A stretch of 64,000 bases of DNA from Dillenia suffruticosa (taxonomy: Eukaryota; Streptophyta; Magnoliopsida; Dilleniales; Dilleniaceae): positions 31,194,761-31,258,760 of the forward strand of contig JAVTVX010000012.1 in the NCBI GenBank assembly GCA_033439265.1, read 5' to 3'. Under the pieces are notes generated by a model, which was given only the letters and a program-made list of their open reading frames with translations, did no database searches and was not told where the DNA came from. Shown one piece after another: positions 3,226-64,000 of this stretch. How positions within the stretch are numbered: the stretch's first letter is position 1; the number at the start of each line of letters is the position of its first letter. Position numbers and translations under genes: made by a program.

Positions 3226-3739
3226 ATGGACATCAGCGAATAAGCAAGAGCAGCTCACAAAAGAAATCTCCTCAAATTCCTCGATCAAGATGTAATCGAT
3301 CTCTTCTTTTTCTCTCTAAAAATCATGAATTTTTCAACTCAGTTAGGGCGTTTATGGAGATACAATCAGGAAAATGACACACGAGAAGCGACGTCCTCGT
3401 CTTATTATCAACATCTCGGATCAACATGACTACTCCACCGACTTGGCTTCACGGTATTCTCTCTCTGGTTCTCTTTTTTTTTTTTCCCTCTCTCCCCACT
3501 TTGACCCGGCTCTTGTGTCTTTTGATGTAATTAGGGTTCTTCGGAGTCCGAGCGAGTATATGCAGCCGTTTTCTGATGCTGTTACAGAAGTGGCTCGGAA
3601 CATCGATCCGAAGTATTTGAAGGAGAACAAGTACCGATTGGATTTGAAGGTCCTTTTGTGTCTCGCAGGGTTTTCTCCCAGAGATCTTCTCTCTTCCTTC
3701 ATGGGTTCCATGGTTTGCGTCCAAGGCATTGTTACGACA

Positions 3740-6206
3740 GTAGGTTTGGGAGTGGGAGAGAAAAGAAAAAATTTTTTTATGGAGTTTTATAAAAGAAAAG
3801 AAAAGGAATCAAATTCTTTGAAAATAAAAAGTTTTACTTTAAACTTTTTTAAAGAATATTTTGAAATATAAAAAATGATTAATTTTAGAATTTTCTCTTT
3901 CTTTCGTCTCTTTCCATTTTTGAGAAAGAAAAAATTTTAAATTTTGAAAGATCTCAGATTCATCCAAATTCTTCTTTTTTATCATACCTAAACTCCCAAA
4001 TGAAAAAAAAAAAATCATAACTTTCTCTTCTAATCTTTTCTTTTCTCTTTTGAACTTTCCATCCAAACGAGCTGTAAATGCACGCTTCTCTCTCCTTCTC
4101 CCTCTCCCTAATTTAATTGACGATGGAGGATGGAGGTCATTCGAAGGAAATTCTGATATTTATGCAAAATTCCAAATTAGGGTTTAATCCTCAAACCACT
4201 TTTGAGAACCCTAAATTCTGTTATCAGAAAATGATTGAAGTTGCTTCTCCAACTCCATCTTCTCTTATTTATCAACTGCTGAGCAAACCCTCAAAGTGAA
4301 TGCGATTCTTGGTTTTGGGAGTAGTAGAATGAAATTTATTTGTGTGATGATCATGCCACTTGTTTGTGATTCACTTTACAATTAGCTCTTGAGCAGCAGG
4401 GGGCGCATTATGGACCTATGAAACCACCACCGTGTTTTCATGTAATTCACTGAATAACTAATTAATTGACAAACGAATGGTCTTGATTTGTTAACTTTGA
4501 CTATTTGTATTCCTGTACACATTGAGGTAATCTGCCCATCTGTGGCAACATGATTCATTCATTCACAGTTTTGGGTAGACAATGAATGGCTTGAAGTGTG
4601 ACAAACAAGGAATGCCACTGCAGATATAATGGGTCTTGTTGAGAAAACTAATAGAGGATGTAATGAGGTGCTTCTTATGGTTTTAAAAGGAATAAGTATG
4701 TCAATACTGCAATACTAAGATTGCACATGAAATGATGTTGTAACAACAATGCTTGGAAGGGGGGGATGAACATTGGTTGCATGTCAGAAAGATGGCACTT
4801 ATTGTACAAAACACATAGATTAACTCTTTAGATTTTTGGCCTGCTATCTGAAATGCATTTTAATGGAGGTCTCAATTGCAAAAAGCATGAAGAGAAACAA
4901 CACTAGAGCATTCTAACCAGAGAGAACTTCATGTTAGGATCATGCCAGAAAGGGCTATGTAGGTTTTATAAAAGACACCGTTCTAGTTTGTGTTTCGGAG
5001 ACTCAGAATAATCTTCAATTTCCACCCATTAAGGGTGTATGATGACGTTTCACTTGAAGGTCTAGGGAAAATTCATCTTACACGACAATATTAATAATTT
5101 CAAGACACCTAGGAAAAGGATGTGGCTCTGGCATATTGTAACTCTGTTGTTATGAGGGCTGTGTATGAAGTGGAGATATTTGTAAACTTTCAATTTGATA
5201 CTTTGTTTTGTTCAATGGGAGTCAAATGAAATTTTTGTGGTTTTTGCCAACTTTGTACATTATTATTTTACTGCAAGTGATTCCTACGGTCAACTTTCAT
5301 CCATCAATTTTTGGTAATGTTATCAAAACTAAGGCTGCGGAGCAACAAGGAAAAGAAAAATAAACTAAGGAAGCTTCAATACAAGAACCGGATATATCTG
5401 GGAAATGCCTTTTGGGGGTATGCAGTTATAAATGACATAAGGACCTATAGAAATTTTAGGCATTGCAAAGCAAACTGATCCTTTTGGTGTAGATACTATG
5501 GGAGTTTATATCAATTAATAAAGAAAGAAAACATGTTCAAAATGAAGCTGTGGTAAAGTATCATGATGTTGAGGCTCATAAAGTGAAGAGCTATAACAAG
5601 AAATGAAGATATAAATCCTGTGTGAGTTGGTTAAGAGAGTTAAAGTTGAGTATATGATGATTGAAACCATGATGCTGATTATCATGTGGAATGGTGGATG
5701 CACTTCTGAGATTTGTTACTGTTTATCATGCCCTTTTATCCCAATAAGAAAGGAGGTTGTTGTTCTATACTCTCTCTCTCTCTCTCTCTCTCTCTCACAG
5801 CATGCATGCACTTTATTTTAACACAATGTGGAAGAAAAAGAATTTACCTTGTTTGTTTTTACTTCTCCTTGCTTGTTTCATCCAAGGATATCACCACAAT
5901 CATGATTTTATTTATTGTAGTTACTGACCACAAGTGCAAAGTCTTTATGCCTATTACAAGAAGTGTTTTGCTTTATCTATTACTTGATTAAAAATCAAAG
6001 TTTTAGCATAGGTACTCCAACTCAATGAAGTTTGTGGACATTTCGTTATTTTATTTCTTTATCTTTTTTTTTTTTTGTAGTTTTAGTTTTATTCTCGAAT
6101 CTGGCTCCTATTATTCTTTGTTGCATGGCAGTTGTTGGCATGCCAAAACAAGTGTCTAGTAAGCCTAATGTACCTATTTGTGTCTGTTGCTGCTACCGAT
6201 CTTCAG
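3740..6206. other. Enlarged intron 3 of the MCM3 pseudogene
   Basis: A 2.5 kb gap between the exon encoding GSMVCVQGIVT and the exon encoding [14 protein letters not shown]. It starts with A/T-rich purine-heavy DNA to about 4080 and contains a (TC)n microsatellite at about 5769-5797. I see no recognisable coding sequence. Confidence 0.55.
5769..5797. repeat. (CT)n microsatellite
   Basis: About 14 CT dinucleotides in a row, inside intron 3 of the MCM3 pseudogene. Confidence 0.9.
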
Positions 6207-7634: not shown

Positions 7635-8513
7635 TGACAATTGCCAAAGCTGGTATTCATGCACCTCTAAATGCTCGGTGCAGTGTGGTTGCGGCTGCCA
7701 ATGGATCTGTAAGTTTTACCTGACGTTCCCAATAACACCAAGATTTGAAAAGTTGCTTCTTTATATTCTTTCCTTGACCTGATTATTTGGCCTTTTTTAC
7801 TGGATGTCTTCAGTATGACCGTTCATTGACACCAACAAAAAACATTGGATTTCCAGATTCGATGCTTTCTCTTTTTGATTTATTATTTATTGTATTGGAT
7901 CAAATGGACATTGATATTGACAGACACATCTCAGAGCATGTATTGCGTATGCATCGTTATCGACCCACAACAGATGGAGGTATGTCTCGTTTGGAGTTGA
8001 AAAGTTCACTTTGTTCACATTAATGAAGATATTACCTCCAGCAACTTAATTTTAGGTGAGAGAGGACTTGATGGAAATTCAAGATATGGAAACGAAAATG
8101 AAGCTGATACAGGATCATCGGTATTTGTCAAGTATAACCGGATGCTGTATGGCAAAAGAACAGGAAGAGGTCAGAAGCAAGAGACACTCACCATCAAGTT
8201 TCTCAAGAAATATATCCATTATGCAAAGCATAGGACTCAGCCTAAGCTGACTGATGAGGTGAGGATGCATTTTTTTCTGGTTCTTTTTCAAGTCTTTTGC
8301 TGTCTTCAAGTCATCATCTGCAGGGTTTTACATCCCATCAATAGCATGTTTGGATTGATATTTGCTGTCTTAATCTGCATGTTAAATTAAAATCTTGTTT
8401 CTCTGTGCTGATTTATCTGTTGTCATAATAGACATCAGAACAAATTGCTACGTCATATGCAGAGCTTTGAAATGCGAGCTCAGATGCAAAGGTTTGTCTT
8501 GCAGGCTTATATG

Positions 8514-10360: not shown

Positions 10361-11106
10361 TGATATCGTTGAGTTCTCATATTAAATGGTGAGAACTATA
10401 AGGTGTGGAAGGAAAAGATACTTCTCAATTTGGGATGGTGTAACCTAGATTATGCTATCAGGCATGACAAGCCGCCTAGGATAATGGATGCCAGCTCTAC
10501 AGTGGATAAAGCTCTTTATGAGCGATGGGAGCGATCTAATTGTCTCAGTACGATATTCATTAAGGATAAAATATCAATTGGCATCCACAACTTCGTCAAT
10601 CAGCATAATGACGTCTGTGCCCTTCTTAAGGCAATTGATGAGCAATTCGAGACGTTTGATAAAGCTCTCGCTAGCACCTTGATTATGGAGTTCTCATCGA
10701 AAAGACTCATCACTATCCACAGAGTGTGCGAGCACATCATGAGGATCTGGAATATAGTGGCCCAACTAAAAACTCTTGAGATTGAGATGTCTAAATCCTT
10801 CCTACTACACTATATTTTGAATATCCTTTCACAGCCTTATAGTCCCTTTAAAATTTCCTATAACACACATAAGACTAAATGATCCATCAATGAGTTGATG
10901 ACCATGTGTGTATAGGAAGAAGGGAGGTGACTCATAAAAATGAAGGAGGGAACCAGTAGCGCATATTTGGTCATGAAAGGAAAGGCAAAGAGAAAAGCCA
11001 AACTAAAAGGAAAGGCAAAGGGACCTATCCCAATTGTAAAAAAAGAATTTACGTGTTTCTTCTGTAAAAAGAAGGAACACATAAAGAAGAAATGTGCCAA
11101 ATTTTA
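10360..11106 (+). pseudogene. copia gag (capsid and zinc-knuckle nucleocapsid), broken
   Basis: NGENYKVWKEKILLNLGW and later ALYERWERSNCL and MRIWNIVAQLKTLEIEMSKS match the copia Gag polypeptide fold. The frame is broken just before NGENY, at the TGA near 10880, and again before the nucleocapsid. The knuckle CFFCKKKEHIKKKC (11054-11095) keeps the C-X2-C-X4-H-X4-C spacing and follows a Lys/Ala-rich stretch. Gag would form the virus-like particle that packages the element's RNA; this copy cannot make one. Confidence 0.8.
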
Positions 11107-11143
11107 GAAATAGTTTGCTGCCAGAGATACGAAAATCTCTTTT

Positions 11144-14100
11144 GTGTGTTATGAATCTCTTATAATTAAGATTTTTTATGACACATGGTGGATTGATTCT
11201 GGATACTCAATTCATATTACGAATATGTTGCAGGGTTTGCAAAACCCACGGAAACCAGTGGGCGGTGAGCAATTCATTTATTTAGGAAACAAGATGAGCT
11301 TGCATGTAGAAGTTATTGAAGATCGCAAACTCATTTTGACTAATGGAAATGTCTTGCAGTTGGAAAGAATTTTTTATGTATCAAGTTTTTATAAAAATCT
11401 AATTTCTGTATCAAAACTTGTACAATTCGGATATTCTTTTCAATTCAATAATACAATGACATTACTTTTGCATTCAAATGTCGTTGGTACGGATCTATTG
11501 ATTGACAGACTATACGAAATTAATTTACAAAATAACACATATTGCAATACAAAATAAATGAGTGTGGACTGTATTAAGAGTAAACAGTACAATAAGTCAA
11601 AGAAAGGTGCCAAGAGGAGCTAAGATCTGTTAGAGATCATTTATACAGATATATGTTATCCGGATATGGACTCATATGACCAAAGGTATTTCATCACTTT
11701 TATTGATGATTATTTACGTTATATGTATCTCTATCTCTTTCGCCATAAGGATGAGGCGTTAGATGCCTTTAAGGTTTTCAAGGCAGAAGTAGAGAAACAA
11801 TGCGGTAAGTAAATAAAGATAGTGAGATCGGATAGAGATGAAGAATACTATGGGAGGTATACTGAAGATGGACAAGCACATGGTCCATTTGCTCGATTTC
11901 TTCAAGAAACTGAGATTGTCGCCCAATATATCATGCCTGGTTCTTCAGACCAAAATGGTGTGGCTAAAATAAGAAATCGAACATTGTTGGATATGGTAAA
12001 GAGTATGATGTCTAGCTCTAAATTGTCTAAATCCTTGTGGATTGAATCTCTTAAAACGGATGTATACATATTAAATAGGGTTCCAACCAAGGCGGTTTCC
12101 AAAACTCCATTCGAAATGTTCAAAGATTGGAAACCAAGTTTGCGACATGTACACATTTGGGGATACCCGTCAGAAGTAAAGGTTTATAATTCACAAGAAA
12201 AGAAACTGGATCCAAGGACCATTAGTGGGTATTTCGTTGGATATGTTGAAAAATCCAAGGGATGCAGATTCTGTTGTCCATATAATCATACTAGGTTTGT
12301 GGAATCGAGGAATGCAAAATTTCTTGAGGATCACTTGATTAGTGGGAGGGATTCCTTTGAAAACTTAGTCTCTGAAAGGAATCTAACAAGTATGCCTGTC
12401 ATTTCAAGTGAAATGATGATTGTTATTCAAAGCGTCCCTCCAGTACCCATGGATGTTGACCCGATTACAGATGACAATCAAAGTATTCCACAATCTGCTG
12501 ATACCAGAACAGATCAAGTTGGACAGCCCTTTCTTAGAGAGACTGTTGAGCCGATATTAAGGAGATCTGTTAGGATTAAGAGGTCAGCAATATTTAGTGA
12601 TTATATAGTCTATCTCAAAGAGTCTGATTACAATGTTGGTGTCGTAGATGATTCTGAGTTATTTTCACAAGTCATAAACTCTAATGATTCGAGTTTGTGG
12701 CTGGAAGCTATGAAAGATAAGATAGACTCTATGACAAGTAACGGAGTTTGGAATCTTGTAAAATTGCCTGATGGGGTAAAACCCATTGGATGCAAATGGG
12801 TTTTTTAGACAAAAACTGACTCATTTGATAACATCGAGAAATACAAAATCAGACTTATTGCTAAAGGGTTTACTCAAAGGGAAGGAATCGATTATTCAGA
12901 GATCTATTTTTCAATATCTAAGAAATATTCCCTTCGTATTATTTTGGCGATTGTTACACATTTTGACTCAGAATTGTAACAAATGGATGTGAAAACGACA
13001 TTTTTGAATGGAGAACTAGAGGAAGAGGTTTACATGTATCAACCTGAATGATTTTCCTCTAGTGATGGTGAGAATTTGGTTTGCAAACTTAATAAATATA
13101 TATATGGACTGAAGCAAGCCTTCCGCCAATGGTATTTGAAATTCCATGAGATAGTCTCTTTATTCAGTTTTGAAGAAAATGTTATGGATCAGTGTATATA
13201 CCAGAAGGTAAGTGGGAGTAAAATTTGCTTCCTAGTATTGTATGTGGATGATATTCTACCTACAACCAATGATAAAGGGATATTGCATGAGGTGAAACAA
13301 TTCCTTTCTAAGAACTTTGCTATGAAAGATTTAGGTGATATGTTTTATGTCATTGGCATTAAAATATATCGAGATAGATTTCATAAGATTTTCGGACTAT
13401 CTCAAGAAACCTATATTAAGAAAGTTCTTAAGAAATACAGAATGCAAGATTGCTCAACGAGTATATCTCCTATCGTCAAAGGTGATCAGTTTAGCTTGGA
13501 CCAGTGTCCCAAGATGGAATTGGAAAGGGAACAGATGACCAATATTTCGTATACTTCCGTATTTGGAAGCCTTATGTATGCACAGGTCTATACCCGACCT
13601 GATATAGCGCATGCAGTTGGAATGTTAGGACGATATCAAAGTAATCCTGGTTTGGAGCATTGAAAGGCAGCAAAGAAGGTGTTACGGTACTTGTAAGGCA
13701 CCAATAACTACATGCTCATATATAAGAGGACCGACAATTTTGAGGTGGTCGGATACTCGGATTCGGATTTTGCTGACTGTGTTGATTCTCGAAAGTTAAT
13801 ATCTGGATATATTTTTGTTCTGGCCGGTGGAGATATATCGTGAAGAAGTGCTAAGCAGACATTAACTGCGACCTCTACTATGGAAGCTGAATTTGTGACG
13901 TGTTTTGAGGCTACGTCACAGTTGGTGTAGCTACGAAGTTTCATGACTAGGTTAAGGATTTTTGACTCTGTACCTAAGCCATTAAGCATATTTTGTGATA
14001 ATTCAATTGCGGTATTTCTGACTAAAAATAATAAAAGTGGTAGTCGAAATAAATATATCGACATTAAGTATTTAACCATAAGGGAACGTATATTGGAAAA

Positions 14101-14230
14101 TAAGGTTGTAATCCAACATCTAAGTACCGAATGTATGCTTGCTTATCCCCTAACTAAAGACATGCCTCCAGTTAAATTTAGGAATCATGTTGTAAATATG
14201 GATTTAAATCTCAATTTTAATGAAATTTAG
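11144..14230 (+). pseudogene. copia pol (protease, integrase, reverse transcriptase, RNase H), broken
   Basis: Protease: WWIDSG with the catalytic Asp at 11195-11197. The usual GAG-pre-integrase zinc region (H/C-rich, RLGH) is missing between 11557 and 11600. Integrase about 11630-12380: EIIYTDICYP, then VRSDRDEEYY, then DQNGVAKIRNRT, where the catalytic Glu is Lys (11966-11968). Reverse transcriptase about 12690-13400: GCKWVF, then a stop at 12808; QMDVKTTFLNGELEEEVYM; YVDD intact at 13241-13252. RNase H about 13740-14170: GYSDSDFADC, TSTMEAEF, IFCDNSIAV, ending LAYPLTKDMPP. Several in-frame stops separate the domains, so no polyprotein can be made. Confidence 0.88.
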
Positions 14231-17529: not shown

Positions 17530-19265
17530 TAATCTTTTGTTGGTTTATGAATAACATATTATTTTGTAAATATATATTGCACCATTAAAATTATCAAATA
17601 ATTCTTAATTAATTATATTTCCTAAAAAAAAATTGTAGTTTTATTTTTTTTAACATTTGGAATAGGAATGTTGGTTGTCCCTTTTATAAGCAAATTGTAC
17701 ATTAACTTCTAAATTCTTATATATTTTAATGATTGTTGTTAAATTTAACACAATCAGGAAATAATAAGATTTTATTTCTCACAACCAGCTAGTCATTTTT
17801 TTTTTTAATTTGATCACTGTATTTGAAAACTCGATTAATTTGATTCGAACATTCGTGAAATTTAATTTAGAGATTGACTTACTAAAACTTGAAATCAAAT
17901 GCTCACTAAATTCCAAGTCGTAATTTGTTTCATGGTTCAATTTTAGAAAAATTTATGTCAAATATCTGGAGTATATTTAGCGATGATTTTTTTTTGATTT
18001 TTTGATCATTTAATATTAATCACTTAGGCATTAAATCTATTGTCGCTGATTTTTCTTCTTCTTAACTTATATCAATGATTTTTTTTTTCCTTTTTTACTT
18101 GTATCAATCATTTTCATAGTTAAATATTAAAAAAAAGTTAGTAGAAAATAACTATACAAATTTAAGAAAATTGTTTTTTATTCTAAACTTTCATTTGTCC
18201 CCCTCCATGACACTCTTGGTTTGCCCTTACATCCAACATAAATCATGAAACCTTACACTTATTACCATTGCATTTGAAAATTTCCAAAATTTGCTCATAA
18301 TACGAGCATAGTTATCTCTGCAAATCAAATGCCTTTCAAGGGGCTTCCTGGGATTCAACTAGGCGAATTCTTTCTTTTCTTTTCATTTTTAGGGAAAGTT
18401 GAACTTGCTATCCCGACTGATTAAGAAAGGGTGAGTATAATAGCTACATGATTCCTTTGATTTCTAAAAAAACCGATCACAATTCTTTTCCTCTAACCCT
18501 GAGATTCAATGTTCAAACACCGTATAACAAAAAGGAAAAAAAAAAATCCCTTCCCTTTTGTTATTGCCCGCGCTTGCATTGGTCAGCTGTACCATTCTAA
18601 GGTTTTGTTTTGAATGATATTCAATTAATTAGTGAAGTGTTGACTTAATGCAAATAATAAGCATCCTGTTTTCACAACTTCTGAATAACATTAATTGGAT
18701 TTTTAACTAGGGTACAAGTTGGATCAAGTATTCAACCCTTTTTTTTTTCTTTAAATAATAATGTTATAATTTATGGAGATATTAGGGATTGGTTCTTTCA
18801 AATTTGAAAACATAATATATAGATAATTTAATAATGATTTTAGTTAATTGATTATTTTTTTCACAACCTTCTAACAAATTTAATTCTAATTTATAATAAA
18901 CTCTTTTTTTATAAACTATTTTTTATTCATTAATTATGTTGAAATCAACTAAATTCGATTCGAAATTTGAATTCAAGATCTTATTTGATATTTATTTTAT
19001 TTATTTCATATAGTATTATTATGTTAAATGTACATAAATTTATATGATCAATATTCTTTCAACTATTAAAAAAAAAAAAGAAAAAAAAAACTAAGAAATC
19101 AATTATTAAAAAAAAAAAAAAAAAAAAACTCTGCCTGTTTCTAGAAAGGGGGGAAATGTGATCGAGATTTAAAATCGTGAGAAATTGACAAGTGGCAGTA
19201 CGTTTTCAGACCAGGAGTGTGTGGCTTGGAAAGGGGGTTATATTTTCACCTCCAAATCAAAATCA
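16688..19265. other. MCM3 pseudogene 3' flank and intergenic DNA
   Basis: Very AT-rich DNA after the MCM3 stop. It contains an ATAC/AT microsatellite at about 17480-17528, several poly-A and poly-T runs (for example 19069-19090 and 19109-19128) and no recognisable coding sequence. The last 100 bases are probably the promoter and 5' leader of the gene at 19266; TTATATTTTC near 19236 is a possible TATA-like site. Confidence 0.5.
17480..17528. repeat. (ATAC)n/(AT)n compound microsatellite
   Basis: Several TACA/CATA tetranucleotides pass into about ten AT dinucleotides and a second short AT run. Confidence 0.9.
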
Positions 19266-22130
19266 ATGGCTTGTCTCACTCTCACTCCTAGTCCCCTGTT
19301 CCTCAAAGCCTCTCTCTTTCACACTCCAACCAAGCCTTTTTTTCCCACCAAAACTCTTCACATTCCTCCATTCAAACCCAGAGCAATAGTAAGTTTTCAC
19401 ATCTCTCTCTCTCTTTCTCTCTCTGTTTTCTTCATAACCCAATTCCCAATCTCTAATTCCTTCTTCAAATTTGGTGTATTTCAGATGGAAGGGGGTGAAA
19501 CTAGCAAACCCAAGAAAGTATTTGTGGCTGGGGCTACTGGGAACACTGGCAAAAGGATTGTGGAGCAATTGCTTGCAAAAGGGTTTGAAGTGAAAGCTGG
19601 AGTTAGGGATCTGGACAAGGCTAAGACTACCTTTTCTGCCAATACCAGTGCTCTTACTTTTGTCAGTATTTCCCATTCCATTCCCCAGTTTGTTACCGAA
19701 TTCTTCATTTTTTTTCCATAGTGGAATTCGAAAATTTTATGTTTTTTTTAATGATAAAATTATAAAGGAGTTTCATATTTTTCTTTAAATTATGAATAAA
19801 GTGTGTTTAATTTTGAGTAAATAGCGTGCAATTCCTTACTTACATGTGGTGAGCTTTCATGAGAGGAGGTGAAACGAGACAGGATCATGAATGAAATATG
19901 AAGCTGTTTCAATAGGATTACTCACTTGTATGACATGCTAGCATGGAGAATATAATAGTTTCATGTCGAAGGTTTAGGTTTTTAAGAAATTAAGGGCATG
20001 TTTGGTGCACGGGGGATGATAGCTGGGTATATTTAGAAAATTAACTGTACGTATGTCAACTTTTATGTTAGTCTGCCAGGTGATTTTTTGCACTAGGTGG
20101 GGGACTCCTGCCCCCAAAATGACAAGAAACTTTGATTCTTTGATGATAAAGCCAAAGAGACCCTTTATGTTGGATGGCTTTTTGTTATTAATAAGATTCA
20201 TGCAATAGACCTAATTGAGACCTGATGCTGTTGAAATCTAGCTTACATAAATACTTAATATTAATTCAATATGTTCATATGATTTTATAAGTACATCCAG
20301 TCAGGATTTCCTATTATTTTACTCTTGAAACCACTTCAATAGAATCTCTATTTTTATAGACTTGACTCATACTATCTGACTTAAAGGTATTCCATGTAAT
20401 GTTAATCAGGTTAAGGCAGATGTCACAGAAAGCTCCACGAAGTTAGCTGATGCTATAGGTGCAGATTCAGATGCAGTGATTTGTGCAACAGGCTTTCGGC
20501 CATCTTGGGATTTGTTTGCTCCTTGGAAGGTTTGTAACTATGATTTACGAATATCATTGGGACAACTGATTTGTCATTCACCATTTTCTTCGTGTCATTG
20601 TGAATTCTTTTTAGGTTCCATTGCATGTTTTGCGGTGTGATATCCCTAATCCTGGCATATAAGTGAACTTGTAACCTTTGGTTGAGTTTGTGGGTAGGTT
20701 TCTCTAGATCAATAATTTGACCAACCTTCAAATCTACACCAACATACTGCTGAGAAAAATGAAATCTACCACCCATTTTTTATGCATTTCCATATGTATA
20801 ATGATTAATTTGCTGGGGGAACTTGAAGAGAAGTTTATACAATTGCAAAAAATTTAGAATGAACTGAATTGAAGCTTTAACTGCTCTACACTATAATAAG
20901 ATTGCACTTTCTTGGCCTTGTGAGCATGCCAGGTGACAACTTAATGGTAAGAAAAATGACCTTTAGATTACAAAATTCTACATGCATACTGTTAATTTTT
21001 CTAAAATATGCCACTATTAGGTCCTAGTGAATCAAGCATGACTGTAGAGTTAAGGGTAGATTTTTTTCTTAAACTCCAGCACCTTCGTAGATGAACATAT
21101 TTATACATGCCATTTAAAGCCAAGCACTCTAATCCTTCTTGTTTATAAGGTGTGGTACTAGTTTTAGTTCTTGCCTATGCCTAGGAATCTTACTTCACAT
21201 GACCCATAAACCTGATCTTTCTGTCTGAAAATACTAATAAGAATGGTTAAAAAGGAAATAAAAGTTTGCTGTGTTATTTCTAGAATACATTTATGACAAG
21301 GTTATAGCACCACAAATTCAATGCCACATAAATGAGGCCAACTTATACTATCCTTCAACCACATAAATGATGAGCAAACCATGAGTACAATGACTTGAGT
21401 GACAATTTTTAACTAATTTAATGTCAACAGGTTCCGGTGTTCAATCCCTAAAGTGAAAATTGCAATTACATGTAAATTGTTAAGAAACCTACATATTAAT
21501 GTTCATATCTTCCTCATGAATGGAACTCCATCTTGCTGTGCAATAGGATTACTGTACCTGGTTTCTGAAGGTTCTTGTGATGCAGGTCGATAATTTTGGC
21601 ACGGTAAATCTTGTTGAAGCATGTCGGAAGGTGGGGGTAAATAGATTCATTCTTATTAGTTCCATTTTAGTCAACGGAGCAGCAATGGGCCAATTGCTCA
21701 ATCCAGCCTACATCTTTCTCAATGTATTTGGACTCACTTTGGTAGCAAAGCTTCAAGCAGAACAGTACATCAGAAAATCTGGAATTAACTACACGATCGT
21801 AAGACCAGGTGGTTTGAGAAATGACCCTCCCTCTGGCAACATAGTCATGGAGCCTGAGGTAATTGGCTTGTCCAAATCTGTCTTTCTACTTGTCTCCTTT
21901 TATGTTTTATGGAACTATTTTCATGCTCTTTCCGTCTTTCTTTCCAGGATACTCTTTATGAAGGTTCCATCTCCAGAGATCAGGTTGCTGAGGTTGCTGT
22001 GGAGGCCTTGGTCTATCCTGAATCTTTCTACAAGGTTGTGGAGATTGTTGCTCGTGCTGAAGCTCCGAAACGTTCCTTTGAGGAATTGTTTGGTTCCATC
22101 AAGCAAAGCCAATTTGGAACTATGCTTTAA
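19266..22130 (+). CDS. Chloroplast NAD(P)-binding Rossmann-fold protein, At2g34460-like
   Basis: Five exons: 19266-19388, 19485-19661, 20410-20529, 21586-21858 and 21948-22130. All have GT-AG introns and phases that join in frame (876 nt, 291 aa). Residues 1-41 are rich in Ser/Thr/Lys/Pro with almost no acidic residues, as in a plastid transit peptide. The core starts KKVFVAGATGNTGKRIVEQL, with the G57-X2-G60-X2-G63 dinucleotide-binding loop of atypical short-chain dehydrogenases. Later blocks are DAVICATGFRP, VDNFGTVNLVEACRKVGV, SSILVNGAAMGQLLNPAY, GINYTIVRPGGLRNDPPSGN and VVEIVARAEAPKRSFEELF. These match the Arabidopsis At2g34460 family, plastid proteins whose substrate is not firmly known. 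No defect is seen and length fits the family. Intron 3 is 1.06 kb. Confidence 0.92.
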
Positions 22131-23944
22131 TCCATATTGTATTTGATGGGATTATTCTCCGCTTGCTACTTTTAAGGGGGCAAATTTTCGTGTACTTAAA
22201 ATCATGTTGTCTATAAATCCACAAGTTTCATACTAAAGTGGTTGCATATAAACTTAGTTGCTTTGTGCAGGAATATTCTAAGTCACAAAAGATGTAATCA
22301 GTTCTACTGCTAACCGCTTTTACAAAAGGTCATAGCTAGCATCCAAATGGTGGAAGAAGCAACTGTCGACCATGGTAAAAGGTTCAATCACCTAGTGTGC
22401 GTGGGTGGTGTGCGTAGCTTTTGAGTTATTGCACATATGCTTAGATTTAGTATTATACACATAAGGGAAGTGATTAACTTTCCATTATCATCTTTTAACC
22501 CAAAAAAAAATAGTGTCATACTTATGAGACTCGCAACTTATAACCGTGAATTTTATGCCAAGTGGCCTGACCAATAGATGATGCACATCAATGGGGCAGC
22601 AGCAACGGGGTGTGCTGCACTGCACGTGGGCTATCATTCGCGCTCACGCACATAGGCCCGAGGAAAGATTTTAACAAATTATAAGCACCATATGGTTATT
22701 ATTCAGGTAATATTTCACATTTCACTTAAGGAGGCATTGCAGTTCAGTAAGCATGGACACTGAAAGCAAGAGATAGCCTAAAAAGGACCAACCCATCAAA
22801 GTGAAAATTGCGCCAAACATTGCTGGAAGATGCAAAGCTACCGATCTGTAATCTATTGCCTGAGACCTGAGTCAGTGCAATCTGTTCTGCTTTCTCAACC
22901 ACTGCTGCGGTGACACAAGTCGAAATGATAGCCATGTCAGTGGTGATGGCCATGGCCGATTTGATAGCATCCATTTTCTAATGTCTATGATTGAAAGTGC
23001 TAGCAATGTCTACTTAAATGTACAATCCGAAAAAGAAAAAAGGTTACAGTATGCATCTCATTAAGTAAATAAGCTTTTACATTAATTATTCAAAAGTGCT
23101 CCTAGTGTGAACATTTTTTCATTCTTTAGAAAATGTAATGGCAAAATTTTGAGACTGATTATCTTTCAAAATGGTTTATGAATTAAGATTTAAGTGTGAT
23201 ACTTGGAGTGGATTTAGAATTTGATTTTATGGATAAAAGAAGATGGGTAAAATGCAGAAATTTCTATGTGGATGCTGTCACCTTATGGTTCAGAAAATCG
23301 ACTTTTAATAACACTACAATTTGAATAAATAATAGATAACCCTTTCGCTAAGAATCCTATTAGAATCTGTCAAAAGTTATTATATATAAATATAATAAAA
23401 AGAATTGTTTTTGATCACTAAAAAATAATTTTAAAATGATTAAAATTTAATTGGAATTGTTACCCTTGTTCCTCTATTGCTTCCCCTCTCCTTTCACTGC
23501 CCATTTACCTCTTCCCTTTGTAGAAGAGATGCCCTTAGTTTCATATATGGTGTCATTAACATGCAGAAACACAAAACAATCAGCAAGACTTACAGATAGA
23601 TGGGCCTTTCCCTTGTTCTTTGCCAAATTATTTGAAGCTGTAGATGCATTTATTATTCAAGTCTCCTTCCTCCACTATCCTGAAATTTAGTAGAGGATTT
23701 CTCATTACAATACAACTTGAGTATTTAAAAAAAAAAGGATAATATAAGGATGGAATGATAATAAACTTGACAGTAGTTCTGCTCTTGTTTCTGGTTTCAT
23801 GCACTGGCTGTTGCATCTATAGAAGCAGCCATACCTTCAATGGCCTTCATTAGCAATACAAACTTTCATGGGGAGTAGAGTTGCCATTGCATTTGTTGTT
23901 GCAGCCCGGCCTATTATCCCCTTATTGTAAGCATATTTCGCATT
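22131..23944. other. 3' UTR and intergenic DNA
   Basis: Starts with the probable 3' UTR of the Rossmann-protein gene. The remainder has short open frames on both strands with no recognisable similarity, and I support no gene. Confidence 0.5.
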
Positions 23945-26360: not shown

Positions 26361-28085
26361 AAATGTTGCAATTGCACTTATAAACATTCTACACAGAAAT
26401 TAGAATTATTTTAGAATTTGACTAAAAGAAATCAAATGCTATAATGTCAAATGTTTACTAAAATAGTGTTGCAATTCGTTTAATAACAAGTCAATATTCC
26501 TCTATATTTCATCAATTTCTAAATTGAACCTTGCAAAAATGTAGTATGATAAAATTTTAATATAATTATTACTTAGTGGTCTATAACCATAGAAGGTTAA
26601 AGTAGAGTAATTGTATATTTACTAGATTGTTTCCATTTACTATTTGTTAAAAATGCATTGGCCAAGAAGAGGAAAACATTAACTAAAGTACGATGCAAAG
26701 TCGAAAATTATATACTCAAAGCATACAAAAGGGTGGGGGGATTTGTTGTGTACATGACGATTGTGCTGTTGTTGTTGTTAATAATGCTAAAAAGGCTTAC
26801 TTTTCAAGAGATTAAAGATTTTACTGGATTGAGGATAACGAAGTGAGGGGGACATTGCAGTCCTTGCAGTGAAGTCCGTGTCCTTCAAAAAGTGGGATTA
26901 ACATATGCCCTTTCTACAGTTGCCAAAAGGATGAGAGGTGATGGATGGCGATTCATTCATGTTAAAAAATGAATTCACTAACCATCGTGACTGCATAGAA
27001 GTGAACCTTCTGTTATGCACTTTCAGTCATCGTTCTTGTTTGAAGTTATATTTATATGTGCCTTTTACTAATGGGCTGTACCAATCATCATAAGCAGGGT
27101 AGCACCTTGTTTAGCCGAGCAGATCCCAGTCATTCTCCATCGAAGGATGGTAGACTTGGCATCTCAAATAAGTCTCACAAGTGGGCTGTGCCAATCATAG
27201 CCAAAGCCGGCCTCCGAATTTCACCAAAAGCTTCCTCACTCTGCCAGCTGCTGCAGGGTAGTACCAGAACCAACAAGCCCCCAAAACTCACTGTTGCTCG
27301 AGCAGCCATTTAAGGTATCCCAAATCAAGAATAATTCCTTTCCACCATTAGACCCACCAATTCTACTCTCATTCCCCCACTTCCTTAAGCTTTGCCAGCA
27401 TTCTAAAAAGTGTAAACAAATAAAAAATAAATAATAAACATTGGCAATACATTCAACATCACAAAGAAAATGCTACCTCCATTAGTAATGACAGCAAAGG
27501 TTGAACTTCACTGAGTTCATACACATCAGAATTGACAGACACTCAACCAAGACTGATCAATTACCTTACTAAGGACTTGAAAACAATTTATTTAATTTTA
27601 AAAGATACTTATCTTTAATATTCTTTTCATACTTATATAGCATCAACATGATAGAGAGAAAAAAAATTCAAGAATGCAATTAGCAGGCCACCCAATGTGC
27701 TTCTTACACTATAACTTTAAGAGAACATCAACTAGCATGCTGGAGCAATATATGAATAGCTGATTCTCATTATGCACTTTTGATCCCAAAGAACCCAGAA
27801 AAATAGAACATAGAATAAAGCACAAAAATTTTCCCCCTCCAACCTGGGTGTGGAAACAAAAAAAGAAAAGATCATTTTTTTATCATTCAACCAGTAAGAG
27901 ATATTATTTTACCATTATAAATTCATCTGGAAACATTATGTTATTCTTGACATACATCCTGTACCTAAAAAAAAACATCAGAGATATTGAATTTAGCACA
28001 GAATTGAATTACTTAGCTGAGGTACAACAAATTGAACTTGTTCACCAGTTCTAGCCTGCTTTAACCAGATATTCTGAGCAAAACA
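26361..28085. other. Intergenic DNA between the MULE and the MADS locus
   Basis: AT-rich, with short open frames only (for example 27056-27313), none recognisable. It may include unrecognised TE ends. Confidence 0.45.
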
Positions 28086-28087
28086 AG

Positions 28088-28120
28088 GACTCCGTGCCCA
28101 ATGGATAAGGCGCTGGTAAC
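28088..28120 (+). pseudogene. tRNA-Arg 5'-half remnant
   Basis: GACTCCGTGCCCAATGGATA followed by AGGCGCTGGT resembles the acceptor, D-arm and start of the anticodon stem of plant tRNA-Arg. The A box lacks one G (TGCCCAATGG for TGGCCCAATGG). After GGT the sequence diverges: no anticodon loop, T-arm or B box follows. Either a truncated tRNA gene or the head of a tRNA-derived SINE. Confidence 0.45.
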
Positions 28121-28185
28121 CCCGCTTCTTACAATACAAACAAATTAACAAAAACAGAGAACCCAATTATCAACATCCAAAAAAT

Positions 28186-28749
28186 CTAAAAGCCAAAATT
28201 GATTACTTCAGAAGTCATCTCCACCTCAACCTCAAAAATCTTCTTCTCCACACTGTTCTTCAAGTCATTTCCATCTCCACCTCAGAAATCCTCTTCTCCA
28301 CACTGTTCTTCAACTCCTCCAATGCATTGTTGTAATTCATTAGTTCATCCAATTCAAACCCTTGACCGTCGTATCATCAGCATCAAGGACCCATGAATAC
28401 CTATCGTCAGCACAGCGTAGTTTTTGCTCTTTCTCCTTCTCAACCTCCAACAACCTCTCAAGAACCTCAATTTCCTTACTTTGTGGCTCGCCTTTAACAA
28501 AATTATCCTCGTACTCCTTCGCATAGTCCTTGGCTCCGAGAAAGCTATTGAAGACCCAGTCGGAAGAGGGATGGCCGTACGTGAAGTACTTGTTGCCCGG
28601 AGAGATGACAATGACGGCGCGATCTGGGCACCAGAAAGCCAGCTTAATTCAGCAGCCTTGCTCATTAAACCTTGTCTGCGCTTGGAGAATGTGACCATCA
28701 ATTTGCTTTTGTCGGTTATCCTCTTAATCTCTATTTTGCGTTTTCCCAT
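28186..28749 (-). pseudogene. Type I (M-alpha, AGL61/62-like) MADS-box gene with frameshifts
   Basis: Starts at ATG 28749 with GKRKIEIKRITDKSKLMVTF then SKRRQGLMSKAAELSWLSGAQIA, a good MADS DNA-binding domain of the endosperm/gametophyte type I class. Directly after AQIA the frame is lost. Shifting frame restores VIVISPGNKYFTYGHPSSDW and then VFNSFLGAKDYAKEYEDN, KEIEVLERLLEVEKEKEQKL, which continue the family pattern. The cause looks like an extra GC in GCGCC near 28620. A second shift occurs near 28365. A 50-bp tandem duplication then adds another KNSVEK-type segment, with a TGA at the join. Type I MADS genes are normally intronless, as here. If the GC insertion is an assembly error the gene could be nearly intact, but the second shift argues against that. 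Confidence 0.8.
28212..28311 (-). repeat. 50-bp tandem duplication in the MADS 3' end
   Basis: Two adjacent 50-nt units (28212-28261 and 28262-28311) with a few differences. On the minus strand each starts GAAGAACAGTGTGGAGAAGA. Because 50 is not a multiple of 3, the duplication also shifts the frame. Confidence 0.9.
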
Positions 28750-28857
28750 GTTTATGAATTGATCAAGGTCGCAGAAATTAGGAAGAGAGAGAGAGAGGAG
28801 AAGAAGAAGAAGAAAGAAGAAACTTTTTCTGATGACGTAAATTGGCATATGGGGTTT

Positions 28858-28868
28858 GCATATATAGG
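28858..28868 (-). promoter_or_regulatory. TATA box of the MADS gene
   Basis: CCTATATATGC on the minus strand, about 110 nt upstream of the ATG at 28749, with a purine/CT-rich leader between. The spacing suits a TATA box and short leader. Confidence 0.45.
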
Positions 28869-29789
28869 GTTTTGTAGGAGGAAAAAAAAATAGAAACAAG
28901 AACATCTTGGAAACTCGGAGAAATCGAAATGCAGACTTTGTTTCTAATATGTCATCCCAACGGTCATATTTCCCTCCCGTAGTTAGTTTCTTGGAATCAA
29001 AGGTATCCGAATCATTATTGGAAAAAATTTAGAAGTCTTTCTAAATCATCACTAAAAATTCAGCTGTTCGTTAGGAGAGAAAAACTAAAAACATCCGAAG
29101 ACAAATAATTACTTTTTTTCACTTCAATTTTGTTAAAATTCAGCCATTTTACGATTAAACTATAAATATAAAATTATAATTATTTTTTTTGGTATGAAGA
29201 AAGATATCGTGTCTCTAAGAGTACAGTTTAGTGGTATAAACTCTCTTCCCTAATTTGATGATTTCATATTCAAATTTTTATAAAAAAAAATGAAGAAAGA
29301 TAATGTGGGAAAGACAGTTCTTCGTATCACCAAACCCAATATATTTGATACAATTATGATATTATGATTTTTTTAAATGAATTTTTCTTATATATCTGAA
29401 TTTTGTGTGATTAATTCAGTTCGAAAATTATGTGGTTCATTTGAGATTGATTTTCTCAAATCTTATTTTTTTTTTCATTAATCGAATCTGAAATTTATAA
29501 TTAAAAGAATATAACATTTTATCACTATCTCTATATCTACAGGAGTTTGGTTACGATACCGCTGTCACGAACAATGAGCTTATTTGGTAGAACTGAGCAT
29601 CACGCAAATCCTTCAAGTTAAACTTACCAAAGTCAAGCCCAATAAATATTATTTCTGTCCAAGCCTGATATATTCCCAAAGCTTTTGTAAATTTTGTCCA
29701 ATTTATCTCGTGAGTAATAGAAAATTTATATATATAAAAACTAGGAGGGTTTTGACAACATAAGATACGGCCTTGGCCTAAGTTTTTTT
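28869..29789. other. Intergenic DNA
   Basis: AT-rich sequence upstream of the MADS locus with no recognised gene or element. Confidence 0.5.
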
Positions 29790-32255
29790 TTGTGTGTTAT
29801 AATTATTGAAAGAAAATAATGATGGATGAAAAAAAAGTAAAAAGGAAATAAAAAAATAAAAAAAAGTAGTAAAAAAGGGGAATAGTAGGAAACCGTTATC
29901 AGGGGAATAAAAAAATGAATAAAAAAAAAGAAATGTGAAGGGTGAGGGAAAAAAAGAAGAAGAAACCCAAAAAAATTATAAAAAAAAACAAAGAAAGAAA
30001 AAAATGAAGGATAAATGATGAAAAAAATAAAAGTAAAAAGAAAAAGAAAAAGAAACCCCAAAAAAGGGAATATTAATAAACTGTTCTCATCCGAAGTGAC
30101 AATTACTCCTACCACCCCCACCCCATTTGCTTTTAAAAAAAAAAAAAAAACTTTCAATAGTGTGTAAGTGTACGTGCATGCAGATTTTTTATTGAAGGAC
30201 GTTTTAATAAATTAGACAACCAAAATGATCAAAAAAACCAAGTTGTACCAAATGGTATCAAGAGGAGAAAGGACTTCCAAAAAAAGTTGTGAAATAGTTA
30301 AACCCACAAAAAAATAAGTGAAAAAAACAAACGGAGAAAGGAAAAGAGATAGATTAATAAGGAAAAAAGGTGAATGGTGAAAAAAAAGTAAAGAAGAAAA
30401 AGAAGAAATAAAAAAAATTAAAAAAATAGTAACAAATCGGTAACAATAGAATCCAAAATAAAAGGAGAGAAGAAAAATGGTGGAGGGTGAAAAAAAAAAA
30501 AGAAGTAAACAAAAACAAAAACAAGAAGAAGAAAAAGAAGAAACCCCCAAAAAAGTTAAAAAAAAAAAAAAAAAAGGAAAGATGAAGGGTGAAAAAAAAG
30601 AAGCAAAAAAAAGAGTGAATGGTGAAAAAATAGGAAGAAGAGTGAATGGTGAAAAAATAAAAGAAGAAGAAACCCCAAAAAAAGAAAAAAAAAAAAAAGA
30701 AATAATAGCAAATGGTTCCCAATCGATGTGGCAGTCCTTCCCAATCGATGTGGAAGTCCCTCCCACCCCCTCCTTACTTGTTCCTTTATATATAGTTATG
30801 ATGATAATTAATTAAGAATATTAAAATTAAGATAAGATATATATATATATATATATATATATAGTAAAGGGTAGAAAAAAAAGTAAAAAAGAAAAGAAGA
30901 AACAAAAAAAAGGAGCAATACCAAACTGGTAACAGTGAAATAAGAAGCGTGAAGGATAAAAAAAAAACAAGAAGAAACCCATAAAAAGAAAAAAAAAAAA
31001 AAAAAAGGTGAAGAGTGTAAAAAAAAAGAAGAAGAGACAAAAAAAAAAGGGAACCGTAGTCCATTGTTCCTATCCGAGGTGGCATTCTCTCCCACTCCCC
31101 TCTCCCCAAGAGTGAAGGTGGAAAAAAAAGTAAAAAAGAAAAAAAAAAGTAAAAAAAAGGAACAGTAGTAAATCGGTAACAACGGAACAAAAAAAATGAA
31201 AAAAAGAAATGTGAAGGGTGAAAAAAAGAAATTAAAAAAAAAAAGAAGAAGAAGAAGAAATCCAAAAGAATGTTAAAAAAAAAAAGAATGGTGACGGATA
31301 AAAAAAGGAAGTAAAAAAAAAAGAAGGAAAAAATAGTAAATGAGTGAAAAAAAAGAAGTAAAAAAATAAGAATAGTAACAAACTGGTAGTAATGGAAGAA
31401 AAAGGAGCAGATAAAAAGAAGAGTGAAGGGAGAAAAAAAGAAGAAAAAAAAAAAAGAAACCCAAAAAAATTAAATAAAAAGAAGGATGAAGGGTGAAAAA
31501 AAAGAAGTAAAACAAGGGTAAATCAGTGAAAAAAGAAGTAAAAAAAAAAGGCAACAAACCAATAACAGTTAATCTTAAAATAAAAGGAGTAAAAAAAAAA
31601 GAAGAGTAAAGGATGAAAAAAAAAGTAAAAAAAAAAGGAAGAAGAAAAAACCCAAAAAAAAAAATTAAAAAAAAAAGGTAAGGTAAAAGATGAAAAAAAG
31701 AAGTAAAAAAAAATGTAAATGGGTAAAAAAAAGAAGTAAAAAAAAAGAAAAAAAAAAGAGGGAATAGTAGCACACTGTTCCCATCCGACGTGACACGTTC
31801 TCCCATACCCCCTCCCTACTTGTTCTTTTCTTCTAAAAAAAAGAAGAAGAAACCTAAAAAATATGTTTTAAAAAAAAGAATGGTGAAGGATAAAAAAAGA
31901 AGGAAGTAAAAAAAAAAGAAGGAAAAAGGGTAAATCGGTGAAAAAAGAAGTAAAAAAAAAAAAGAATTATAACAAACCGATAACAGTGAATCCAAAAAAA
32001 ATGAGTAAAAAAAAAAGAAGGGTGAATGATGTAAAAAAAAGAAGTAAAAAAAAAGGAAGAACAAGAAACCCAAAAAAAATTTTAAAAAAAAAAGGTAAGG
32101 TAAAGGATGGAAAAAAAGATAAATCGGTAAAAAGAGAAGTAAAAAAAAAAGAAACCAAAAAAAGAAAAAAAAAAAAAAAAAGGAAACGGTGCCACACTGT
32201 TCCCCTCCGATGTGGCACACCCTTCCACACCCCTCCATCACTTGTTCTTTTCATT
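29790..32255 (+). repeat. Purine-rich (A/G) array with a recurring pyrimidine module
   Basis: For about 2.5 kb the + strand is almost entirely A and G. Recurring words are GAAGGGTGAAAAAA, AAGAAGTAAAAAA and GAAGAAACCCAAAAAA. A second word like AACAAACCGGTAACAGTGAA recurs near 30425, 30915, 31160, 31375, 31555 and 31970. A module resembling CACTGTTCCCATCCGATGTG, then a C-rich CTCCCACCCCCTCC and ACTTGTTC, recurs at about 30080-30134, 30714-30786, 31061-31110, 31771-31830 and 32191-32252. Module spacings are irregular (about 350-710 bp). This looks like a decayed higher-order tandem repeat. Minus-strand frames here give only Phe/Leu/Ser runs and are not genes. Confidence 0.85.
30836..30862. repeat. 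(AT)n microsatellite
   Basis: About 13 AT dinucleotides between repeat modules 2 and 3 of the purine array. Confidence 0.9.
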
Positions 32256-32726
32256 TTTTTTTTTTTTGTTATATAATGATGTGAATATGAAATTATCAGA
32301 TTAATGGAGGAAATTTATATCACTAAATTGTTTATAGGAGACTTGTTCTTTCCTAAGATAAGAAAGATTGAAATTGTTGCCTTGGCTTTGGGCCGGTTGG
32401 CAGTCAAGCCAGCCCACAGGATCATAGGAAAAATCATGGGCGGGCATGAATTTCACAAGTATTGTCGCAACTCGTAAGTTCAAACCTGCATGCGAGCATT
32501 ATGCTGGCATTTTTATGGAATCTAAAAAAAGAAATATTGTCGCAACTCCACCGAACCAAAATAGGGTCATATTCCACTTAGGCTAGGCCTACGAAATTTA
32601 ATGTGCAGTCGTTCTTGCTAAAAGGGCAAGGGCCATACTCAAGTCTCAGTTTTTTAGTAGAGAAATTGTTTGATATGCATTATCTGGAAAAAAAAAAAGT
32701 AAAAAAGAAGTAAGAGAATTTGTTAA
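32256..32726. other. Spacer after the purine array
   Basis: No gene recognised. Contains a copy of ATTGTCGCAACTC at two places (about 32461 and 32535), a short direct repeat. Confidence 0.4.
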
Positions 32727-62351: not shown

Positions 62352-63083
62352 TTAGTTCGCCAGATTCTCTACCCCAAGCTTTTGTACTTCCACTTTTAGA
62401 GACTTGAGATATCTAACTGCTTCATCCAGAACCGCAACTGTATTCATTTGGTCAGCACCAGGTACAATTCCTCTCAGTGCCTTCACCATCTTCTTCATTT
62501 TCTTCCGCTTCCGCTCAATATTGCAGCCACTGCCACTGCTAGAAGATTTGTGTATAGTCGAGGAAGAAATCCTACTCTTCTTCAGTTTGGAACCATAATT
62601 GCAGCAACTATCTGGTGAACTGCTTCGGTAGTTATCATGAGTTCTTGCGGTGCTAACCTCCTCCTCGTCGTACTCTTCTTGGTCTTCATCTTCCAAGCTC
62701 AACAACGCATCAATATCTTCTAAATCCTCTTGTGCTGAAGAGGAGACTTCTTGATCATTGATATTTTCATCCTTATCAACAAACTTTTCATGTACATAAT
62801 TCCCAAGGATATTTAAACCAGGAGAATCAAATCTGTGAGCAATTGCTGGGTGGAACATAATCTGGCTCCTATTCTCAGTCTGATCAAAGATAATAAAGTT
62901 CCTTGGGCAAACTTCTGATGGTTGAAATTCCAGAGGGGGGACTGGAGCTGAGTACCTCACAGGAGGAGGTAGAATGACATCAAGGTTGGATGCAGCAGTA
63001 GCATTATACATGTAACCGTTTGCCACATGATTTGCAATTGGGAGCAATCCGTTTCTTGAGGAGAACTGTTTGCCGGTCTGCAT
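62352..63083 (-). CDS. SAC51/bHLH144-type HLH transcription factor
   Basis: A 243-aa protein from ATG 63083 to TAA 62352. Order: a variable N-terminus; the family signature SEVCPRNFIIFDQTENRSQ (about residues 56-74) followed by IMFHPAIAH; an acidic stretch (LEDIDALLSLEDEDQEEYDE); a Ser-rich linker; and a C-terminal helix-loop-helix (residues about 188-238) with RKRKKMKKMVKALRGIVPG and AVLDEAVRYLKSLKVEVQKL. The basic region lacks the His-Glu-Arg DNA-contact residues, as in the atypical SAC51-like (SACL, bHLH142-145) group. In Arabidopsis, SAC51-family translation is controlled by thermospermine through a conserved uORF and affects xylem differentiation. The matching uORF end lies upstream (63357-63395). 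The choice of start fits the family's M-Q- beginning and leaves the uORF out of frame fusion. Confidence 0.85.
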   Translation of the reverse strand: MQTGKQFSSRNGLLPIANHVANGYMYNATAASNLDVILPPPVRYSAPVPPLEFQPSEVCPRNFIIFDQTENRSQIMFHPAIAHRFDSPGLNILGNYVHEKFVDKDENINDQEVSSSAQEDLEDIDALLSLEDEDQEEYDEEEVSTARTHDNYRSSSPDSCCNYGSKLKKSRISSSTIHKSSSSGSGCNIERKRKKMKKMVKALRGIVPGADQMNTVAVLDEAVRYLKSLKVEVQKLGVENLAN

Positions 63084-63125
63084 GTGTGGTGCTGTTGAAA
63101 AGACAAGCTCACCAGAGAGATGTAT

Positions 63126-63296
63126 CTGCAGCTATTAAGTTGGCAACTTTGATTTTGGTTGGACAAATTTTCTAGGTTGATGACAAGAATAAATACTATG
63201 TTTATAACAAAGGCATTAGACGTAAAGAAAGAGCGCTCTAACCCAAACAAACCCTTAGTGAAGTCAAATGTTTCATCTCATTGACCGCCATCTTAC
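63126..63296 (-). other. Possible intron in the HLH gene 5' leader
   Basis: A good donor (ATGT|GTAAGA, first intron base 63296) and acceptor (AGCTGCAG, ending at 63126) lie between the uORF stop and the main ATG. Removing this segment would also remove small ATG-started frames such as the one at about 63290. Splicing is inferred from motifs only. Confidence 0.35.
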
Positions 63297-63356
63297 ACAT
63301 GATCACACGTATAAATGGCAGTTATCCCAATACCCCAAAAAATTTGAAATGGAAGA

Positions 63357-63395
63357 CTACGTCACAGGTTTCAGCAACTGACGGAAATACTCTGC
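63357..63395 (-). CDS. Conserved SAC51-type upstream ORF, last exon (partial)
   Basis: Minus-strand exon after the acceptor TTTGCAG encodes AEYFRQLLKPVT and TAG (63357-63359). This is nearly identical to the C-terminal end (AEYFRHLLKPVT) of the conserved peptide uORF in Arabidopsis SAC51-family leaders as I recall it. The remaining N-terminal part must lie in an exon right of 64000. The uORF stop is 273 nt upstream of the main ATG in genomic distance. In the family, this peptide reduces main-ORF translation and thermospermine relieves it; that this copy does so is inferred. Confidence 0.82.
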   Translation of the reverse strand, partial: AEYFRQLLKPVT

Positions 63396-64000
63396 CTGCA
63401 AAGAGGGAAAAAATAAAAAGAAAAGGAGCACATGAGTACAAATGTCTTGGCCAAAGGATCAATGTAAGATGGGGAGAAAATGCCACAAAGAATAGGAAGT
63501 AAAGAGTAAAACAACCACAACTAAGGTGCAGACACCACATTCTCCAAAAGGGTATTAAGGGAGAATCAGCAAACTCTCAAGGAAGGAACTCTAGCTAGAT
63601 CATACTAAAAAAGACATTCTTCAATACGAAAACCATCTCTTGCCTCAACACACTCAAGGGCTTCATGCAGAAGTGAACGAGAAATATAAGATAACTTCAT
63701 CGTTGGCATAATATAACGTTTCAGAAAAAGTGCCACACCTAACAGAGGTACAAGATCTATCACTAAGATTAGATTAGCTACGTTAATATAAGAAACAACA
63801 TGCAGCCAATACTTTTATTATTTATTCCAAAGACAACCAATCCATGCTTGCACACTTTGTTATCTAGATAGGTAAAGCAAAAATTTTTATCAAAGCATAA
63901 GATTGTGACATTTGAAATGGCAACGAGACAAATTAGAACTTTTAGGCCTATTCCATGTGCTGGTCAAAATAAATCCGAAACCTTTCTTTTACAATGATAA
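63396..64000 (-). other. Intron in the 5' leader of the HLH gene
   Basis: Starts (reading on minus) beyond the window and ends at the acceptor before 63395. I searched it by eye for the upstream uORF exon and found none. Confidence 0.6.

Follow-up and report, generated by a model that had tools for sequence, protein, structure and literature searches.

The closest described systems to the locus considered here are the leaders of the SAC51-family bHLH genes, which carry a conserved-peptide uORF designated HG15.3. In the published numbering, SAC51 corresponds to bHLH142, SACL1 to bHLH143, SACL3 to bHLH144, and SACL2 to bHLH145 (PMC3426882). The HG15.3 uORFs are reported to encode peptides of 43-54 aa, at whose C-terminus 13 of 14 residues are completely conserved between Arabidopsis and rice, and uORFs of group 15 were reported as far as fern (Hayden and Jorgensen, 2007, PMC2075485). 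HG15.3 is also listed among the uORFs with sequence-dependent action (PMC7106846). SAC51 is described as a gene of four exons, with exon 4 holding the complete CDS, three introns in the leader, and a fourth uORF of 53 aa (Kakehi et al., 2015, PMC4308196), a length from which we infer that this uORF is HG15.3. Ishitsuka et al. (2019, PMC6504692) mapped the SAC51 uORFs to exons 2 and 3. The conserved uORF of Arabidopsis is itself presumably split by an intron.

Mutants in the uORFs of the SAC51 family suppress acl5 (Xu et al., 2025, PMC12436307; Mutsuda et al., 2025, PMC11913374), and premature stops or changes in the conserved uORF are reported to result in higher expression or in acl5 suppression (Ishitsuka et al., 2019; Xu et al., 2025; Mutsuda et al., 2025). 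Mutations in ribosomal proteins are described as increasing the output from the SAC51 and SACL3 leaders (Xu et al., 2025; Mutsuda et al., 2025), and mutations of RPL4, RPL10, and RACK1 have been reported to ease repression by SAC51-type uORFs. SAC51 has been counted among the conserved-uORF genes that are targeted by nonsense-mediated decay (NMD) (PMC3284524), and Kakehi et al. (2015) suggested stalling on the nascent peptide together with NMD through a downstream exon junction. The same study reports that acl5 is not suppressed by upf1 or upf3 mutations; thus, decay alone does not account for the repression.

Thermospermine has been reported to relieve the block imposed by the SAC51 uORF. The response is described as lost when uORF4 and its internal uORF6 are both without start codons, the sac51-d leader, with its premature stop, as still responsive, and a fragment carrying just the minimal uORF6 as giving no response (Ishitsuka et al., 2019). 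In wheat germ extract, according to the same report, thermospermine was without effect, and translation was reduced by the leader whether or not its uORFs kept their start codons. Thermospermine increased the output of a SAC51 CPuORF-LUC reporter (PMC9305500), and the single Marchantia homologue is described as having neither the conserved uORF nor a response (PMC11020214). The AdoMetDC uORFs (HG3) are likewise conserved uORFs linked to polyamines in the literature, although they belong to another gene and encode another peptide, and polyamines are reported to stall ribosomes on them, in contrast to the relief reported for thermospermine at the SAC51 uORF.

The window analyzed here, a stretch of 64,000 nucleotides of Dillenia suffruticosa DNA, very probably carries the end of such a conserved-peptide uORF (HG15.3) of a SAC51-family gene (probability roughly 0.9). 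Positions 63395-63357 on the minus strand translate exactly as AEYFRQLLKPVT, followed by a TAG stop, so that the feature at 63357..63395 consists of 12 codons and a stop. The corresponding tail of the Arabidopsis SAC51-family uORFs is presumed here, as in the original prediction, to be AEYFRHLLKPVT followed by a stop. Compared with this presumed tail, 12 of 13 positions are equal, the stop included, and the single difference is a Gln where the Arabidopsis tail is presumed to have His. The original prediction that this segment encodes the conserved tail and stop was accordingly borne out, and its claim of one His-to-Gln change holds against the presumed Arabidopsis tail. The tail agrees with the HG15.3 C-terminus in its conserved residues and its position, with presumed reference letters and the comparison starting at the Ala. 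The C-terminal tail with its stop (by the presumed reference letters and the published description) and the placement of this tail in the leader that precedes a SAC51-family bHLH ORF are common to the HG15.3/SAC51 family and to this locus; in contrast to HG15.3 of Arabidopsis, Gln stands where His is presumed, and the first half, the start codon, and the internal AUG are not seen within the window. The peptide strings of the tail were absent from the text of the literature searched, in which the alignments of PMC6504692 and PMC2075485 are figures.

The main ORF lies downstream on the same strand, at 62352..63083 (minus strand), and encodes 243 aa in an intact, uninterrupted CDS. Its translation passes the Pfam model PF23173 (bHLH_SAC51) with 30.8 bits against a cut-off of 28.5 (E 2.9e-7), which places it in the SAC51 family of bHLH proteins, the kind of main ORF that characterizes HG15.3. 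The general Pfam HLH model reached 18.1, under its cut-off of 20.7, and the HLH of the main ORF aligns to MYC2 with an E of 0.00092 in a match that starts within the basic region. Since PF23173 is above its cut-off and the ORF begins 273 nt downstream of the tail, the claim that the uORF end precedes a bHLH gene of the SAC51 family is upheld; the bHLH144-like label of the original prediction is a candidate name for the paralogue. Three other assignments of the main ORF were set aside: Pfam DUF1645 as below its cut-off, and the likenesses to V-ATPase subunit H chains (E 0.025-0.051) and to SREBP-1A (E 0.4) as weak. A search of IMG/VR for relatives of the bHLH protein yielded 23 stretches that matched a pattern, none of which was confirmed.

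Elsewhere in the window, on the plus strand, 3347-3868 and 8001-8387 show weak Pfam matches, below the cut-offs, to MCM_N (E 0.00042) and MCM_lid (E 0.0011) and are perhaps exons of an MCM helicase gene, and 19173-19718 and 21547-22143 encode an NAD(P)-binding protein of the NAD_binding_10/NmrA kind, over the Pfam cut-offs. Broken stretches at 10373-14227 (plus strand) resemble, by eye, a Copia-type retroelement (gag, integrase, and reverse transcriptase). A MADS-box is found at 28343-29028 on the minus strand (SRF-TF, E 1.5e-12), and by eye its continuation lies in another frame, possibly indicating a broken type I MADS gene. A long low-complexity stretch with Phe-rich open frames on the minus strand occupies 29744-32314, and the AT skew is 0.34 in 28001-32000.

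The tail is preceded immediately by an AG with the properties of a strong 3′ splice site. Pyrimidines occupy 19 of the 20 positions upstream of it, and the closest other AG lies 50 nt upstream. Scored with an assumed plant splice-site matrix, which was used for the acceptor and donor ranks throughout, this acceptor is second among the 3730 AGs on the minus strand. When thresholds of at least 17 pyrimidines in 20, no AG within 20, and a pyrimidine at -3 were applied, 38 of the 7439 AGs on both strands passed, and the values of the tail acceptor satisfy them. The frame of the tail can be followed upstream through 21 codons without ATG to a TGA at 63461; consequently, a tail translated from an AUG needs splicing to an upstream exon, and unspliced translation of the tail from an AUG start is rejected. 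The leader of SAC51 is described as interrupted by introns, with its uORFs in exons 2 and 3. A strong acceptor precedes the tail here, and the region 63396..64000 (minus strand) is probably the 3′ part of the intron that would split the uORF, of which at most 605 nt are inside the window. The predicted position of the tail behind an intron agrees with these findings. The description of a 13-codon spliced exon of 39 nt stands as far as the strong 3′ splice site is concerned, but not in its length: these 39 nt form only the coding part at the beginning of an exon that continues beyond the uORF stop, at least to a possible donor (63333, 63296, and 63252 are among those scored) or into the main ORF.

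That the tail is a chance match of a short peptide is extremely improbable: the Arabidopsis tail is a presumed one, but the next-best places for it on both strands of the window, at least three in number, reach 6 of 13 positions, and the number of matches of at least 12/13 expected in the window is approximately 6e-10 under a model of its trinucleotide composition, a figure that depends on the presumed target peptide. A 20-base degenerate pattern for QLLKPVT-like codons matched once in the window and in 1 of 100 shuffles (mean 0.01). The exact DNA pattern of the tail had no match in IMG/VR contigs, and the same pattern without the Ala codon had none in GTDB genome contigs; since these are collections of viruses and prokaryotes, the scans serve as a chance control only. 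The tail is, moreover, on the correct strand, shortly upstream of a SAC51-family ORF and behind a strong acceptor, which likewise argues against coincidence.

It is also conceivable, though quite unlikely, that the uORF is a relic or a shortened form, in which the upstream exon or the start codon has been lost or a short start within the window is used, so that the full peptide is not made. Such a loss would agree with the lack of an in-frame AUG on the stretch leading from the stop at 63461 to the tail and with the failure to see a uORF-like first half by eye in three frames of the 605 nt of 63396-64000, where no AUG-initiated uORF with the full 43-54 codons and the conserved N-terminus was found either. 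An intron longer than 605 nt accounts for this absence equally well. Of the 41 GT sites in 63396-64000, seven follow an in-frame ATG and could give starts of 4 to 20 codons, but these donors are weak, with ranks from 543 to 2763 of 2791, and the best of them (rank 543) would give an 11-codon start; a uORF start inside the window through one of them is improbable and would be too short for the 43-54-aa form. The rank of the acceptor, the completeness of the tail, and the intactness of the main ORF also speak against a relic. The likeliest reading is that the intron exceeds 605 nt and that the first half of the uORF lies beyond the window.

From the uORF stop to the main ATG, the leader (63084..63356, minus strand) measures 273 nt and contains, if unspliced, five ATGs (63300, 63291, 63281, 63276, and 63216), the longest uORF within it being 20 codons. 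On the model of SAC51, which has its complete CDS within exon 4, a second leader intron of 205 nt (GTAAGA..CAACAG, 63092..63296, minus strand, with an alternative donor at 63252) was proposed as a speculative candidate. It is not favored by the splice-site scores: the acceptor at 63092 is the best in this stretch but ranks 207 of 3730, and the donors at 63296 and 63252 are mediocre (ranks 975 and 89 of 2791). The top-scoring donor of the stretch, at 63112, ranks 37 of 2791 but lies only approximately 20 nt before the acceptor. An intron at 63296-63092, ahead of the main ORF, is therefore unlikely. Its removal would join the ATG at 63300 to the main frame, giving a protein of 247 aa that starts with MSPHMQTGK, would eliminate four of the five AUGs between the ORFs, and would leave 56 nt from the conserved stop to the main start and 60 nt from that stop to an exon junction. 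The mRNA would then be open to exon-junction-dependent decay, and the same step might come under the control of both splicing and thermospermine. Without splicing, the 324 nt that begin at the tail and end shortly after the main ATG do not fold more stably than shuffled sequences (z 1.14; 91 of 100 shuffles were at least as stable), which gives no grounds for proposing a structured switch here, and a search of the window with Rfam at gathering thresholds gave no match.

The DNA itself shows the tail, the acceptor signal before it, the bHLH_SAC51 ORF, and the order and distances of these parts. Taken with the published Arabidopsis work, from which splicing, translation, repression, and a polyamine response would be expected here, the arrangement is consistent with the following model. 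A leader exon would open with the final 12 codons and stop of the conserved uORF, whose AUG and approximately 31-42 codons would come from an upstream exon that most likely lies beyond the window. Ribosomes translating the joined uORF would synthesize a C-terminus that stalls them or causes unproductive termination at the stop, so that few would reach the main AUG and the mRNA would be exposed to NMD. Thermospermine may lift this block and permit synthesis of the bHLH protein, which would restrain LHW-type partners in xylem formation. It is likely, by analogy with the SAC51 family, that the uORF represses its main ORF.

The last step of this model is the least certain, because the leaders of paralogues differ and the AUGs that decide the response lie upstream of the tail; the odds that the D. 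suffruticosa leader responds to thermospermine may be put at about even. Among leaders from other species, those of BoSACL1, OsSACL3A, OsSACL3C, and GmSACL3 were reported as responsive, and those of OsSACL2, PtSACL2, GmSACL2, and BoSACL3 as unresponsive in transgenic Arabidopsis (Ishitsuka et al., 2019); Arabidopsis SACL2 and SACL3 have been reported as unresponsive as well. With four such leaders on each side and two Arabidopsis paralogues without a response, the statement in the original prediction that the tail predicts polyamine-controlled translation was too strong. The uORF may be real and repressive, yet belong to a SACL2-like paralogue without a thermospermine response, which would hold translation at a fixed low level; this alternative, which rivals the preferred model only in its last step, is nearly an even proposition, falling a little short of it. 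The four unresponsive leaders are in its favor and the four responsive ones speak against it. All of the responsive leaders are described as carrying two overlapping uORFs through an internal in-frame AUG (Ishitsuka et al., 2019), and at the present locus such an AUG would have to lie upstream of the tail, in which Met is absent.

The D. suffruticosa locus is very probably a further example of a known switch, and the known mechanism is unchanged by it. Annotation easily overlooks a 12-codon coding tail that follows an intron; hence, the gene model should carry the tail. The locus adds one more plant in which the leader switch of the SAC51 family can be tested, and the Gln for the presumed His represents a natural variant in a stretch that has been described as nearly invariant.
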